This document shows positions 2,682-15,474 of a stretch of DNA of 31,257 nt, piece by piece. Origin of the DNA: a virus; IMG/VR virus record IMGVR_UViG_3300017776_000088, positions 1-31,257 of that record; one strand, 5' to 3'. The first letter of the stretch is position 1. Each line of letters opens with the position of its first letter. The notes under the pieces are model-generated. The model searched no databases. It was not told where the DNA came from and saw only the letters and a program-made list of their open reading frames with translations. A program made the position numbers and the translations under genes.

Positions 2682-2709
2682 TTGACAAACAGTGTTATAT
2701 TATTACATA
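2682..2709 (+). promoter_or_regulatory. Candidate sigma70 promoter of the lysogeny module
   Basis: A perfect -35 hexamer TTGACA at 2682-2687 is followed 16 bases later by TACATA (2704-2709), four of six matches to the -10 consensus. It lies in the gap after the early genes and just before the regulator-integrase block. Confidence 0.45.
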
Positions 2710-2723
2710 CGCTACCGTAATAA
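2700..2723. promoter_or_regulatory. Palindrome overlapping the lysogeny promoter (candidate operator)
   Basis: TTATTAC at 2700-2706 and its exact complement GTAATAA at 2717-2723 are separated by 10 bases. The half-site centres lie about 17 bp apart and cover the putative -10 and transcription start. This geometry suits a dimeric winged-helix repressor, such as the MarR-like protein encoded 150 bp downstream. Autoregulation is inference. Confidence 0.4.
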
Positions 2724-2741
2724 CTTGACAGGAGGTGTATA

Positions 2742-2933
2742 ATGCTAGTAAGGTTCTTTAGAAATGAGGTTTCTATAGGAAAGTGTTTATACGATTGGTT
2801 TTTATTACCAAGAGTAGCGTTTAGAAACAAAAGGACTGATTGGAATTTACTTATCAGTTGGTTAGGGGGGTGTCTTGTCTGGTCGAGACTTAAAAGAACA
2901 CATAAGAATACTGACGGAGTTCAGAAAGATTGA
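2742..2933 (+). CDS. Small hydrophobic/basic protein, 63 residues
   Basis: Begins MLVRFFRNEVSIGKCLYDWF and is preceded by the strongest Shine-Dalgarno sequence of the region, AGGAGGTGT, immediately upstream. Two hydrophobic stretches (about residues 14-27 and 34-48, LLISWLGGCLVW) alternate with Arg/Lys-rich segments, so it may associate with the membrane. Its last 59 bases overlap the MarR-like gene in another frame. It may be real, or mainly a translated leader that couples expression of the regulator. No homologue recognised. Confidence 0.5.
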   Translation: MLVRFFRNEVSIGKCLYDWFLLPRVAFRNKRTDWNLLISWLGGCLVWSRLKRTHKNTDGVQKD

Positions 2934-3186
2934 CGCTTGGATGCACATTCAAACTGTGTATGCTTTTGTAATTATCGCTCAACGTACTTTTGTTAATGCA
3001 GAAACGCTGAGAGTTAGGGATGTTGGTGAGTTCATGGATACATCCAGTGCTAGTGCAAGTAGAAACTTACGAGTGCTAGTAGATCACGACTTAATTAAAC
3101 TTTACGAGAATCCCGATAGACGTATTGAGAAGTTTATTGAGGTAACAAAGCGAGGCAGAGCCTTGGCAAGGAGGATTAGATTATGA
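2875..3186 (+). CDS. MarR-like winged-helix regulator
   Basis: 103-residue DNA-binding protein. An N-terminal helix (RILTEFRKIDAWMHIQTVYA) leads into a winged helix-turn-helix: VRDVGEFMDTSSASASRNLR (about residues 46-65) is the recognition unit, LVDHDLIKLYENPDRRIEKF the wing, and VTKRGRALARRI the final helix. This is the layout of MarR-type regulators, though shorter than stand-alone members (about 140). The frame opens with TTG at 2875, with GGGGGG a few bases upstream as ribosome binding site; no ATG is available. Next to the integrase and behind a palindrome-bearing promoter, it is the best candidate for the lysogeny regulator. Stop overlaps the next start (ATGA). Confidence 0.75.
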   Translation: MSGRDLKEHIRILTEFRKIDAWMHIQTVYAFVIIAQRTFVNAETLRVRDVGEFMDTSSASASRNLRVLVDHDLIKLYENPDRRIEKFIEVTKRGRALARRIRL

Positions 3187-3275
3187 GTAAAATAGCTTTT
3201 GAAACTTTTATATTCACACTATCATGCTTTATCATCGGTAGTGTACTTACTACTATACTGGAGGTATACGTATGA
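3183..3275 (+). CDS. Single-pass membrane micropeptide, 30 residues
   Basis: The product, MSKIAFETFIFTLSCFIIGS then VLTTILEVYV, is one hydrophobic helix with a short charged N-terminus. It is joined to both neighbours by ATGA overlaps (3183-3186 and 3272-3275), so it is probably translated between the regulator and the integrase. Alternatively the frame exists only to couple translation into int; its 3' end carries the GGAGG-like ribosome binding site of int. Confidence 0.5.
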   Translation: MSKIAFETFIFTLSCFIIGSVLTTILEVYV

Positions 3276-4279
3276 GTGTTAAGCCAAGAGGTGCCGGTTG
3301 GGAAGTTTACGTAACCCACAAAGGTAAAAAGTTTAGACAAACTCTCTCCACTAAAGAAGATGCTACACTACTGGAGGCTAAGTGGAGACATGCTCTAGCT
3401 GTAGGGCAAGACCCGCTAAAGATGGAGGTTAACCAAGAAACAGGAGCAGCGTCAGGTTGTACGCTAGACCATGCTATGACTAAAACTTATGACAAGTATT
3501 GGTCTGGCAGCAAGAACGAACAGGCTGTAATTAATCTAATGAAAGCTATTCGTACTTACTGGGGTAAAAACATAGCTATTAACCGTGTTACTACTACAGC
3601 TATTGAGTCGTGGGTTGCTGAGATGAGAACAGATAAAGCTAACGCTACTATCAACAGGCACTTAGCTATTATATCCAAGACTTTAAAGTGGGCTTACAGG
3701 AATGATCTACTAACTAAGCTGCCACATGTTGAACGATTGTCTGAAGTAGGTACTGAGCGAATAGATTACTTCTCTAAAGCAGAAGAAGAAGCTATTTTGT
3801 CTAAGTTCAAAGAGCTAGGCGCAGACTACCTGCATGACTATGCCATAGTCGCCGTAGATACGGGTATGAGGGCTTCTGAGGTGTTAAAGTATGATCCAGA
3901 GCTTAAACCAGTAAAAGCTCTTAGGAAGGACGGGAGCAGGGTACATGCCGTACAGGTTAACGTACGTAAGAATGGTAAGCCGCTTGTAGTCCCTTTGACT
4001 AAGAGAGCGGAAGACATACTACGAAAGCGTAGTTTCGACGTTACCGTACACGATTATAAGTACCGCAAGACATGGGATAAGGTACGTAAGGATTTAAACC
4101 TTATGCCTAAATGCTGGCACACTTGGAGGCACACATGTGCTGCTAGGTTAGTTCAGCAGGGTATGGACGTAGCACGTATACAGAAATGGATGGGGCACTC
4201 GACTATTGCAACTACCATGAAATATGTTAAATTAGGCGCAGACGATCTAGTTCAAGGCGTCGATTTATTGGAGGAATAG
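3272..4279 (+). CDS. int: Tyrosine integrase
   Basis: 335-residue site-specific recombinase. Residues 1-45 form an AP2-like arm-binding domain (GWEVYVTHKGKKFRQTLSTK), about 65-165 the SAM-like core-binding domain, and 170-335 the catalytic domain. The catalytic set is visible: R200 in DTGMRASEV, a beta-hairpin Lys near 233-236, H283-x-x-R286 in WHTWRH, H309 in MGHST and the nucleophile Y318 in MKYVKL. It would exchange strands between the attP just downstream and a host tRNA-Leu gene. The ATG overlaps the preceding micropeptide stop; GGAGG lies about 6 bases upstream. Placement between early genes and RNA polymerase, followed by attP, matches the marine podophage arrangement known from P-SSP7. 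Confidence 0.96.
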   Translation: MSVKPRGAGWEVYVTHKGKKFRQTLSTKEDATLLEAKWRHALAVGQDPLKMEVNQETGAASGCTLDHAMTKTYDKYWSGSKNEQAVINLMKAIRTYWGKNIAINRVTTTAIESWVAEMRTDKANATINRHLAIISKTLKWAYRNDLLTKLPHVERLSEVGTERIDYFSKAEEEAILSKFKELGADYLHDYAIVAVDTGMRASEVLKYDPELKPVKALRKDGSRVHAVQVNVRKNGKPLVVPLTKRAEDILRKRSFDVTVHDYKYRKTWDKVRKDLNLMPKCWHTWRHTCAARLVQQGMDVARIQKWMGHSTIATTMKYVKLGADDLVQGVDLLEE

Positions 4280-4281
4280 TG

Positions 4282-4308
4282 GTGTCCTGTTGTGTCCTAA
4301 AGTGTCCT
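4282..4308 (+). repeat. Three GTGTCCT repeats at exact 10-bp spacing
   Basis: GTGTCCT occurs at 4282-4288, 4292-4298 and 4302-4308, each start 10 bp after the last, so all three present the same face of the helix. They lie just after the int stop and 56 bp before the attP core. Phased repeats here are expected of integrase arm-type sites or accessory-factor sites. Confidence 0.6.
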
Positions 4309-4363
4309 ACACGAGAGCATTTTCAGCACTCTGTTTTCCAAAAAATCGCAGAAAACTGGGAAT

Positions 4364-4401
4364 GGCCTCGTGGTGGAATGGTAGACACAAAGGACTTAAA
4401 A
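4364..4401 (+). other. attP core: 5' half of a tRNA-Leu(UAA) gene
   Basis: Bases 4364-4401 read as the first half of a leucine tRNA: 7-nt acceptor strand GGCCTCG, TG at positions 8-9, D-arm GTGGAATGGTAGACAC, then anticodon stem AAGGA and loop with TAA. After TTAAAA the sequence departs from a tRNA (GCCGTT instead of the complement TCCTT), and no variable arm, T-arm or acceptor complement follows. The strand exchange region would be the anticodon loop. Position directly after int supports attP. Most tRNA-targeting phages carry the 3' half; this one carries the 5' half. Confidence 0.8.
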
Positions 4402-4480
4402 GCCGTTCTAACCTTACTTCATATCCGTAGTAACTTTTAAATTAAATGAGGAAAACTAACATAAAACAATTAGTCCTTTG
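4388..4480. repeat. Inverted repeat around the attP core edge
   Basis: CAAAGGACT at 4388-4396, inside the tRNA-like core, has an exact inverted copy AGTCCTTTG at 4472-4480. Between and beyond lie two near-identical direct repeats, CGTAGTAACTT (4426-4436) and CGTAGTAAGTT (4490-4500). These could be recombinase or accessory protein sites on the P' arm; function unproven. Apart from them, 4402-4500 holds no gene I can support. Confidence 0.4.
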
Positions 4481-4551
4481 CTCCGCTAACGTAGTAAGTT
4501 ATGAGTAAAGCCACCACAACATTAATATGTGTCCCAAAACGAGGTGACGGT

Positions 4552-5334
4552 ATGGCAACACTGCAAGAACAGATTGACTTAGAGTATCAGATGGTGCGGT
4601 CAGGCATCGACAGGTACAACAGGCAACTGTCGGACTTATTGGAAAAAGATTTAGGTTCTAAAACTAAACACGGGCGTACTATCATAAAAGGAATTATTGA
4701 CCCAGTACAAGAGCAGATAGAGTTGCTCTGTGTGAAAGATAGGGATCAAAACAAAAGTATATCAAAGAACATCATAAAGGATATGGATGCAGGTACAGTA
4801 GCATACTTAGCTCTTATATGTTTGATTGATAACTTAGTTAAACGTAACACACTACTTGCTGTAGCCAGAGCTATTGGCATACAGATAGAAACACAAAAGA
4901 GATTAGACCTGTGGCTGACGGTGGACAAGGAGATAGCCACCAACATGATTAAAGAAGCTAACAAGAAATCTGACAAAGGGTTTAACCACAAGCGGTACGG
5001 TCTAGACCACAAGATTAATTCAGATGGTTTGGATATACCTACATGGTCAGCAAACGAACGGATCAACGTGGGGATCAAGCTTATTGATATCATCATCAAG
5101 AGCACAGGCATTGTTAAACTAGAGAAGAGGATACTTAAACGCAAGACGGTTTACCATGTGGTAGCCACACAGGAAACAGAGGATTGGGTATCGGCTTTTA
5201 ACGAGACAAACAGCATAGCGTTACCAAGGTACAGTCCTTGTATTATACAACCAAAGGATTGGGAAAGTTTCTGGGGTGGTGGTTACTACTCTAAGCATAT
5301 TAACAAGTTACCATTTGTGAGGGTTCACGCATGA
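4552..5334 (+). CDS. Phage RNA polymerase, N-terminal domain subunit (split T7 gp1)
   Basis: 260 residues matching the N-terminal domain of T7-type single-subunit RNA polymerase, the part that binds the promoter AT-rich region, opens DNA and clears the transcript. Recognisable segments: AGTVAYLALICLID (T7 PEAVAYITIKTTLACL), INVGIKLIDIIIKSTGIV (T7 IHVGVRCIEMLIESTGMV) and QPKDWESFWGGGYY then LPFVRVHA (T7 PPKPWTGITGGGYW then LALVRTHS). It stops at VRVHA, where T7 continues into the thumb. The frame opens at 4501, but ATG 4552 with GAGGTGA 5 bases upstream is the better start. The stop overlaps the next start as ATGA (5331-5334), and the catalytic body follows in the -1 frame. Confidence 0.9.
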   Translation: MATLQEQIDLEYQMVRSGIDRYNRQLSDLLEKDLGSKTKHGRTIIKGIIDPVQEQIELLCVKDRDQNKSISKNIIKDMDAGTVAYLALICLIDNLVKRNTLLAVARAIGIQIETQKRLDLWLTVDKEIATNMIKEANKKSDKGFNHKRYGLDHKINSDGLDIPTWSANERINVGIKLIDIIIKSTGIVKLEKRILKRKTVYHVVATQETEDWVSAFNETNSIALPRYSPCIIQPKDWESFWGGGYYSKHINKLPFVRVHA

Positions 5335-6989
5335 GAAAGACAGCACAAGATTATGTTAACGAGTTACAGAAGTGTGACCTATCGCTTGAGTACCAATGTG
5401 TTAACGCCTTACAACAAACACCTTGGCGTATTAACCACTTTGTCGTAGAGACTTTAAGGACTTGTTGGGATAGCGGGCAGGAGTGGAAAGGTTTACCACC
5501 AAGAGAAAACCTACCGCTGCCTAAGTATCCCTTTAGCAAGGAGCCGCAATACTTAAACGATGAAGAGAAACTAACGTTTAAAGTGTTCAAGGCAGATCGA
5601 GGTAAGATACATGGCTTTAATAACAAGAGCATGTCGAGACGTATCCAAGTAGAACGTACGATACAGCTAGCTGAAGATTACAAAGACTTAGACAGCATGT
5701 GGTATGTATGGCAGCTAGATTTCCGTGGACGTAAATATCCAGTAGAATCTTTTTTGTCTCCACAGAATGCTGATTACAGTAAAGCACTCTTAGAGTTTTC
5801 TTCTTCTGCTACTATCACGAACGACGAAGATGCTAGGTGGCTTGCTATACACGGCGCTAATGTATTTGGAGTAGACAAAGTAAGTTTAGAAGACCGTGAA
5901 CTTTGGGCGTACATGAACATACAGAATGCCAGTGACGTTTACAACGATCCTCTAGCTTCCCGCTGGTGGCAAGAAGCAGACAAGCCTTGGCAAGCACTTG
6001 CATGGTGTTATGAGTGGGCGTTATACAACGATGCTAAACAGAATGGTGAATCTTTCGAGACAAGGTTACCCTGTGCTAGTGACGGATCGTGTAACGGCTT
6101 ACAACACCTCTCAGCCATGCTTAGAGACAAGGAAGGTGGTAAGGCAGTTAATCTTATGCCTAGCGACACACCGCAAGACATCTACAAGGATGTAGCAGAG
6201 AGAGCTACAGAGTTATTGAGGGAAGAAGGAACAGTGTTAGCTACAGAGTTGCTAAACATTGGTGTATGCCGTAAACTATGTAAGCGACCAGTAATGATCG
6301 TGCCGTACAGTGGAACACAACATAGTTGCAGGGACTACATCAAGGAAGCACTTGAAGAGAAATGCAAAGGGAACAACCCTTGGGGTGATGACTTCTTTGC
6401 CCCTAGTAATTACCTAGCCAAGTTTGTCTGGCAGGCAATTAACGAAGTTATTATCTCAGCACACACCGTAATGGATTACATTAAAAACATTGCTAGACTT
6501 TACAGCCAACTGGGAAAGCCCTTTGAGTGGATAACACCGACAGGTTTATTAGTAAGGCAATCATACAGTAACACAAAGAAGTTAAGAGTTAGGACGCACT
6601 TGAGCGGTTCCTCCGTAAAGTTAAACTACAGAGAGCCGATAGAGAACTCCATTGATTCACGTAAGAGTGTTTCAGGAAGCTCCCCCAACTTTACACACTC
6701 ACTAGATGCCGCTGCTCTTACGCTGACGGTTGACAAGTGTTTGAAGGCGGGGATAACGGACTTTGCTATGGTACACGACAGCTATGGCACACACAGTCCC
6801 AACATGGTTTTACTTAACGACAAGTTAAGAGAAGCCTTTGTCGAGATGTATAGAGATAATGATGTATTACAAAATCTCTACGATTACGCAGTAACTACAC
6901 TACCGGATGGAACGGATGTGCCGCTTCCACCACAAAAGGGTGACCTAGTTATTGAGGAGGTACTAAAGAGTAATTACTTTTTTGCGTAA
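5331..6989 (+). CDS. Phage RNA polymerase, catalytic subunit (split T7 gp1)
   Basis: 552 residues covering thumb, palm and fingers of T7-type RNA polymerase. Catalytic residues are all present: D251 in ASDGSCNG (T7 D537), R314 and K318 in CRKLCKRPVM (R627, K631), Y326 (Y639), and H482-D483 in VHDSYGT (H811-D812). The region of the specificity loop is about 416-445, and the chain ends in FFA like the T7 FAFA foot. Together with the upstream ORF the pair totals about 812 residues against 883 in T7. GAGG at 5318-5321 lies 9 bases before the ATG, so independent, coupled initiation is plausible. It would transcribe from the promoters at 6991 and 15453. Confidence 0.95.
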   Translation: MRKTAQDYVNELQKCDLSLEYQCVNALQQTPWRINHFVVETLRTCWDSGQEWKGLPPRENLPLPKYPFSKEPQYLNDEEKLTFKVFKADRGKIHGFNNKSMSRRIQVERTIQLAEDYKDLDSMWYVWQLDFRGRKYPVESFLSPQNADYSKALLEFSSSATITNDEDARWLAIHGANVFGVDKVSLEDRELWAYMNIQNASDVYNDPLASRWWQEADKPWQALAWCYEWALYNDAKQNGESFETRLPCASDGSCNGLQHLSAMLRDKEGGKAVNLMPSDTPQDIYKDVAERATELLREEGTVLATELLNIGVCRKLCKRPVMIVPYSGTQHSCRDYIKEALEEKCKGNNPWGDDFFAPSNYLAKFVWQAINEVIISAHTVMDYIKNIARLYSQLGKPFEWITPTGLLVRQSYSNTKKLRVRTHLSGSSVKLNYREPIENSIDSRKSVSGSSPNFTHSLDAAALTLTVDKCLKAGITDFAMVHDSYGTHSPNMVLLNDKLREAFVEMYRDNDVLQNLYDYAVTTLPDGTDVPLPPQKGDLVIEEVLKSNYFFA

Positions 6990-7011
6990 TTCTCTATTGG
7001 CCCCCTATAGC
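6990..7011 (+). promoter_or_regulatory. Phage RNA polymerase promoter, copy 1
   Basis: CTCTATTG-G-CCCCCTATAG, with the TATAG end resembling T7-type promoters (initiating G expected near 7010). The only close copy in the window is at 15453, differing by one base. It sits right after the polymerase gene and before the single-strand binding protein, as expected for the promoter of the replication genes. Confidence 0.75.
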
Positions 7012-15451: not shown

Positions 15452-15474
15452 TTCTCTATTGTCCCCCTATAGAG
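15452..15474 (+). promoter_or_regulatory. Phage RNA polymerase promoter, copy 2
   Basis: CTCTATTG-T-CCCCCTATAG, identical to copy 1 except for the single T in place of G; expected start at G 15472. It lies in the gap between the reductase and the virion genes and would drive the structural operon, the class III position in T7. Confidence 0.75.

Follow-up and report, generated by a model that had tools for sequence, protein, structure and literature searches.

The attachment sites (attP) described for cyanophages all match the first half of a leucine transfer RNA (tRNA-Leu) gene (Shitrit et al. 2022, PMC8776855), and for P-SSP7 and S-TIP37 integration has been shown by polymerase chain reaction (PMC8776855). 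The 5′ half of a tRNA gene is also used by archaeal integrases of the pTN3 type, where expression of the rebuilt tRNA is attributed to the promoter of the integrase (PMC8371274, PMC5495485); such use is said to be seldom encountered in bacteria (PMC8371274). In the Islander catalogue, 3760 of 3919 islands carry 3′ fragments and 159, or ~4%, carry displaced 5′ fragments (PMC4383910). It has also been suggested that an element can be coupled transcriptionally to a tRNA promoter (PMC2951348). The locus described here lies in a 31,257-nucleotide stretch of viral DNA (IMG/VR record IMGVR_UViG_3300017776_000088, positions 1 to 31,257; hereafter the window), where half of a tRNA-Leu gene stands between an integrase gene (int) and a T7-type RNA polymerase gene. 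Positions 4282-4535 are read as the working attP of a T7-like temperate podophage, at which crossover in the anticodon loop would rebuild the host tRNA with the phage 5′ half and leave the phage polymerase behind the host promoter; the probability of this reading as a whole is put at roughly 0.85. The site comprises three upstream arms, a tRNA-half core and one downstream arm:

4282, 4292 and 4302 (4282-4308), plus strand: three arm-type repeats GTGTCCT with 10-bp spacing, at the same positions in relatives
4364-4401, plus strand: attP core GGCCTCGTGGTGGAATGGTAGACACAAAGGACTTAAAA, the 5′ half (nt 1-38) of tRNA-Leu(UAA), identical to 79 SAR11-type loci
4395-4401, plus strand: CTTAAAA, the 7-nt anticodon loop and putative 7-bp strand-exchange overlap, the same block that is common to a SAR11 prophage and its host
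4529-4535, plus strand: downstream arm-type repeat GTGTCCC, which changes together with the upstream copies

The core is identical at 38 of 38 positions to the tRNA-Leu(UAA) gene of SAR11 bacteria (Pelagibacterales), from the first base of the tRNA to the end of the anticodon loop. Identity ends at nt 38, after which the host gene continues TCCTTGC and the phage GCCGTTC. When ~85,000 bacterial and archaeal genomes were scanned for exact copies of the core's inner 29 bp, 94 stretches were returned, 79 of them with the full 38-mer. The records holding these 79 have a guanine-plus-cytosine (GC) content of 23.6-30.9% and are titled (uncultured) Alphaproteobacteria, Pelagibacteraceae or Pelagibacterales. 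The 38-mer is followed by the native tRNA 3′ half at 75 of the 79 loci and by phage or scar junctions at three, and one locus runs off its contig. No host gene matches the phage in its 3′ half: in each of the 75 whose 3′ side can be read, identity stops at nt 38. The genome search proposed in an earlier note on this DNA thus bears out its claim that the core matches a leucine tRNA as far as the anticodon loop and nothing after. Neither ARAGORN nor Rfam finds a complete tRNA in the window, which is a genome fragment, and a full-tRNA search of phage records returned mostly ordinary phage tRNA-Leu genes. A perfect match that ends at the anticodon loop, lies between int and a T7-type polymerase and recurs in relatives is not a product of chance, and carriage of a tRNA-Leu 5′ half next to an integrase in a marine T7-like phage is confirmed.

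The order of int, tRNA half and polymerase is found in 13 other IMG/VR contigs, of which L109 is distant, and in one near-identical contig; a MarR-like regulator lies upstream of int wherever the related contigs extend that far. Across integrases that have diverged to 55-68% identity the core is invariant, except for its first base in two relatives. Relative to the core, the arm repeats lie at -82, -72 and -62 upstream and at +165 downstream, and these positions are kept in 11 of the 12 relatives compared, with the upstream set shifted by 12 bp in one subclade; L109 is without arm repeats. All four copies read GTGGCG(T/C) in L106 and L099, and such joint change on both sides of the core is as expected of arm-type integrase sites. 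An invariant core flanked by arms that change together at fixed spacing implies selection on a working site.

Recombination in silico between the window and a SAR11 genome gives an attR (the int side) with an intact tRNA-Leu(taa) downstream of int, which is where the earlier note had placed the restored tRNA. The attL (the polymerase side) and attP contain no tRNA, the former consisting of a bare host 5′ half before the polymerase. A natural counterpart of the polymerase-side junction occurs in the SAR11 single-cell genome AG-914-F14 (G001), where contig CACIXR010000005.1 carries a 36.5-kb T7-like prophage in tRNA-Leu(UAA) (G001:C5:61649-98560; L121-L123, L131). At its left end, host upstream sequence and the host 5′ half are followed by phage sequence GACTAGCC and, ~155 bp on, by an intact polymerase open reading frame (ORF) of 851 aa. 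This prophage is a direct example of the polymerase-side junction proposed for the window phage, and together with the in-silico attL it upholds the prediction that host promoter and 5′ half come to precede the phage polymerase.

At the right end of the G001 prophage, int is followed by a complete phage tRNA-Leu(UAA) slightly different from that of the host, by a little under 200 bp of sequence resembling phage DNA, and by GTAGTCCTTAAAA, which runs directly into the native host 3′ half TCCTTGCCC. Phage and host share only CTTAAAA, flanked in the phage by arms (TAGTC/GACTA) that imitate the anticodon stem, which locates strand exchange in the anticodon loop, as had been proposed. The G001 relative thus solves the disruption of the tRNA as in tRNA-dependent lysogeny, unlike the window phage. 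Three further SAR11 genomes (G002, G003, G027) carry scars in which a G001-like left junction is followed by ~200 bp of phage-like sequence and a second 5′ half. In each, the native 3′ half follows this phage-side 5′ half, the anticodon loop being interrupted by an intron-like insertion; a mutation has arisen in the displaced host 5′ half of G027. Prophage and scars together represent two solutions to one disrupted tRNA and provide empirical evidence for crossover in the anticodon loop.

The insertion is an observation in its own right. In four SAR11 genomes (L129, L130, L158, L160) the anticodon loop of tRNA-Leu(UAA) is split by a ~200-nt group-I-like intron, an assignment made on motifs only, since Rfam does not report it as group I. 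A phage scar is present in three of the four (L129, L130, L158) and absent from L160. The intron occupies the position of phage integration and could affect it.

The genes and regulatory elements around the attP are as follows:

2682-2726, plus strand: candidate promoter of the MarR-like/int operon, with TTGACA at 2682
2716-2726, plus strand: operator-like repeat CGTAATAACTT, at the candidate MarR-int promoter
2875-3186, plus strand: small MarR/winged-helix-like regulator, 103 aa (phrog_9665 transcriptional regulator, E=1e-9), conserved in relatives
3272-4279, plus strand: tyrosine integrase, 335 aa (PF00589, E=9e-15; phrog_1, E=6e-40)
4426-4436, plus strand: operator-like repeat CGTAGTAACTT, between core and polymerase
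4474-4494, plus strand: block TCCTTTGCTCCGCTAACGTAG before the polymerase, strongly conserved in close relatives
4490-4500, plus strand: operator-like repeat CGTAGTAAGTT, between core and polymerase
4554-5334, plus strand: N-terminal part of a T7-type RNA polymerase (PF14700 RPOL_N, phrog_414); the ORF may start at 4501
5331-6989, plus strand: C-terminal part of the polymerase, a separate overlapping ORF (PF00940, E=3e-105)

The TTGACA and a CGTAR-like repeat occur at the same place in most relatives. The pattern CGTARTAASTT has exactly three copies in the window (2716, 4426, 4490), all in the presumed switch region, against a letter-shuffle mean of 0.075, a figure that overstates the significance since the pattern was defined after the copies were seen. 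Its presence both at the MarR-int promoter and before the polymerase agrees with the suggestion in the literature that in such phages the polymerase is under the control of a MarR-like repressor (PMC10134795). No terminator-like site was found on the plus strand between 4280 and 4560. Upstream of the tRNA half, sigma-70 promoter scores do not exceed those of shuffled sequence, and phage-type promoters, which in the window occur only at 6990 and 15452, are absent. Those two are near-identical T7-type promoters, TTCTCTATTG(G/T)CCCCCTATAG, at 6990-7010 and 15452-15472.

At its 5′ end, TCCTTTGCTCCGCTAACGTAG repeats the anticodon-stem strand CAAAGGA in inverted orientation. Pairing of the half-tRNA (CAAAGGACT) with AGTCCTTTG, upstream of the polymerase, into an RNA hairpin was considered and is not claimed, the overall folding being no better than that of shuffles (z -0.33). 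The polymerase ATG at 4554 is conserved and preceded by GAGG. The two polymerase ORFs meet in an ATGA overlap at 5331-5334, and the relatives appear to be split likewise; a split polymerase has been reported for HTVC019P group III phages (PMC6811365).

These elements suggest the following mechanism. In SAR11-type bacteria, strand exchange by Int would take place within the tRNA-Leu(UAA) gene, in the 7 bp of its anticodon loop. The phage 5′ half would join the host 3′ half on the int side to form an intact tRNA, and at the other end the phage RNA polymerase would come to lie behind the host promoter and an orphan host 5′ half. As no terminator or local promoter is detectable between int and the rebuilt tRNA, read-through from the MarR-int operon would make the tRNA. 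In the lysogen the MarR-like protein would repress the polymerase by way of the operator-like repeats; repeats between core and polymerase suggest that the phage may control the polymerase separately, and argue against control by the host tRNA promoter alone. What carries the overall reading is the sequence identity, the conserved attP anatomy, the in-silico junctions and the SAR11 prophage with its like polymerase-side junction. Integration by the window phage itself is inferred from these, and tRNA and polymerase expression may plausibly be coupled.

The strictest form of the coupling can be held only tentatively: in a lysogen the repressor-integrase operon would be the sole source of an essential host tRNA, and the phage polymerase would be transcribed from the host tRNA promoter. 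Maintenance of lysogeny would then be coupled to host translation, and regulation of the tRNA promoter by growth rate could set off the phage. In SAR11, tRNA-Leu(UAA) is presumably single-copy and essential, to judge by the small tRNA complements reported, such as 31 in Fonsibacter (PMC6811365), and by the single core match per genome.

Several observations weigh against the overall reading. No lysogen of the window clade was found in 162 SAR11 genomes, searched by attL pattern and integrase protein, or in viral contigs; the SAR11 search matched only distant prophages or unrelated integrases. Prophage junctions joining int to a tRNA 3′ half, which the earlier note had proposed to look for, are represented by the distant G001 relative and not by the clade itself. 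Conversely, neither a host match reaching into the 3′ half nor a prophage integrated elsewhere came to light, but neither did a lysogen of the clade. The GC content of the window is 42.5% and that of its clade 41-46%, against ~29% in SAR11, so that a different lineage that has this tRNA half may be the host; SAR11 is a putative host by virtue of the tRNA match alone. T7-like cyanophages with the 5′-half arrangement integrate and form no stable lysogens (PMC8776855), so the lysogenic state may not exist. The regulator matches Pfam MarR_2 at E=1.4e-4, below the gathering cut-off, which makes the MarR assignment weak. Finally, the promoter scan is a weak instrument, because the host's own tRNA promoter is not clearly detected either.

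One attL-pattern match, in G148, was rejected as a lysogen; it is a tRNA-like relic on the chromosome with no phage genes nearby. At this place (G148:C1:130224-130248; L136, L140) two degenerate sequences resembling the tRNA-Leu 5′ half lie ~330 bp apart on a SAR11-order chromosome.

The cyanophage precedent and the terminator-free stretch before the polymerase lend most weight to an alternative in which the site is mainly a transcriptional switch, the host tRNA promoter driving the polymerase towards lysis so that integration occurs without lysogeny. The G001 prophage, whose intact polymerase stands directly after the host tRNA half, has the same bearing. Yet the G001 contig and the scars are integrated states that persisted, and the repeats upstream of the polymerase suggest repression, so that this alternative is judged rather unlikely. 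Much less probable is tRNA-dependent lysogeny, in which a short shared core is used, the host tRNA is destroyed and a complete replacement is carried elsewhere in the phage genome. This strategy is known in mycobacteriophages (PMC10865867) and in HTVC019P-group SAR11 phages at tRNA-Leu(TAG) (PMC6811365), and the SAR11 prophage at the very same tRNA shares 7 bp of loop with its host and carries a complete tRNA-Leu(UAA) beside int. The 38-bp core of the window phage, however, is not short and rebuilds the tRNA exactly, and no complete tRNA accompanies it, although the window is a 31-kb fragment and a replacement may lie elsewhere in the genome. Least probable, by a small step, is that the tRNA half is a relic of past imprecise excision in a phage that no longer integrates, since the missing clade lysogen and the integration of T7-like cyanophages without stable lysogeny, which would suit it, are opposed by an unchanged core across diverged integrases and by arms whose joint change at fixed spacing implies selection.

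A working attP with crossover in the anticodon loop thus remains the preferred reading, and its relation to described systems bears on how unusual it is. The earlier note held that the site reverses the usual logic of tRNA attachment. The 5′ arrangement is indeed a real minority, but it is not new, being present in cyanophages, in the pelagiphages HTVC105P and HTVC109P, in ~4% of islands and in pTN3. Related marine phages were already known to have it, and the site does not constitute a new type. The arrangement is better described as a minority solution found repeatedly among marine T7-like phages that infect cyanobacteria and SAR11, and the swap of promoters between host tRNA gene and phage polymerase provides a testable explanation for the failure of T7-like cyanophages to form stable lysogens after integration.

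P-SSP7, cited in the earlier note as a precedent, is a sound one: its sequence and the published account (PMC8776855) give a MarR-like gene, int, an attP matching the first half of tRNA-Leu and RNA polymerase in the order of the window. P-SSP7 and S-TIP37 differ from the window phage in host and integrase; in P-SSP7 the tRNA half is immediately preceded by a promoter-like TTGTTA-16-TATAAT, where none was detected in the window, and the polymerase is a single ORF, against two in the window. HTVC105P and HTVC109P share MarR, int, the tRNA-Leu 5′ half and RNA polymerase, with nearly the same tRNA region, although their tRNA match extends a few bases beyond that of the window (CTTAAAATCC) and the HTVC105P integrase is only ~31% identical to that of the window over 76% of the query. 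Elements of the pTN3 type resemble the window in that the rebuilt tRNA is cut off from its own promoter, but in them the attP is part of int and integration splits the gene, and they are unrelated elements of another host domain. The Islander 5′-fragment islands have the window's geometry but are a catalogue class of mixed elements and not a family. Fionnbharth and uv-Fonsiphage-EPL also integrate in a tRNA gene with a core at or near the anticodon region (PMC10865867, PMC6811365); they combine a short core with a complete phage tRNA, whereas the window phage would rebuild the tRNA of its host.
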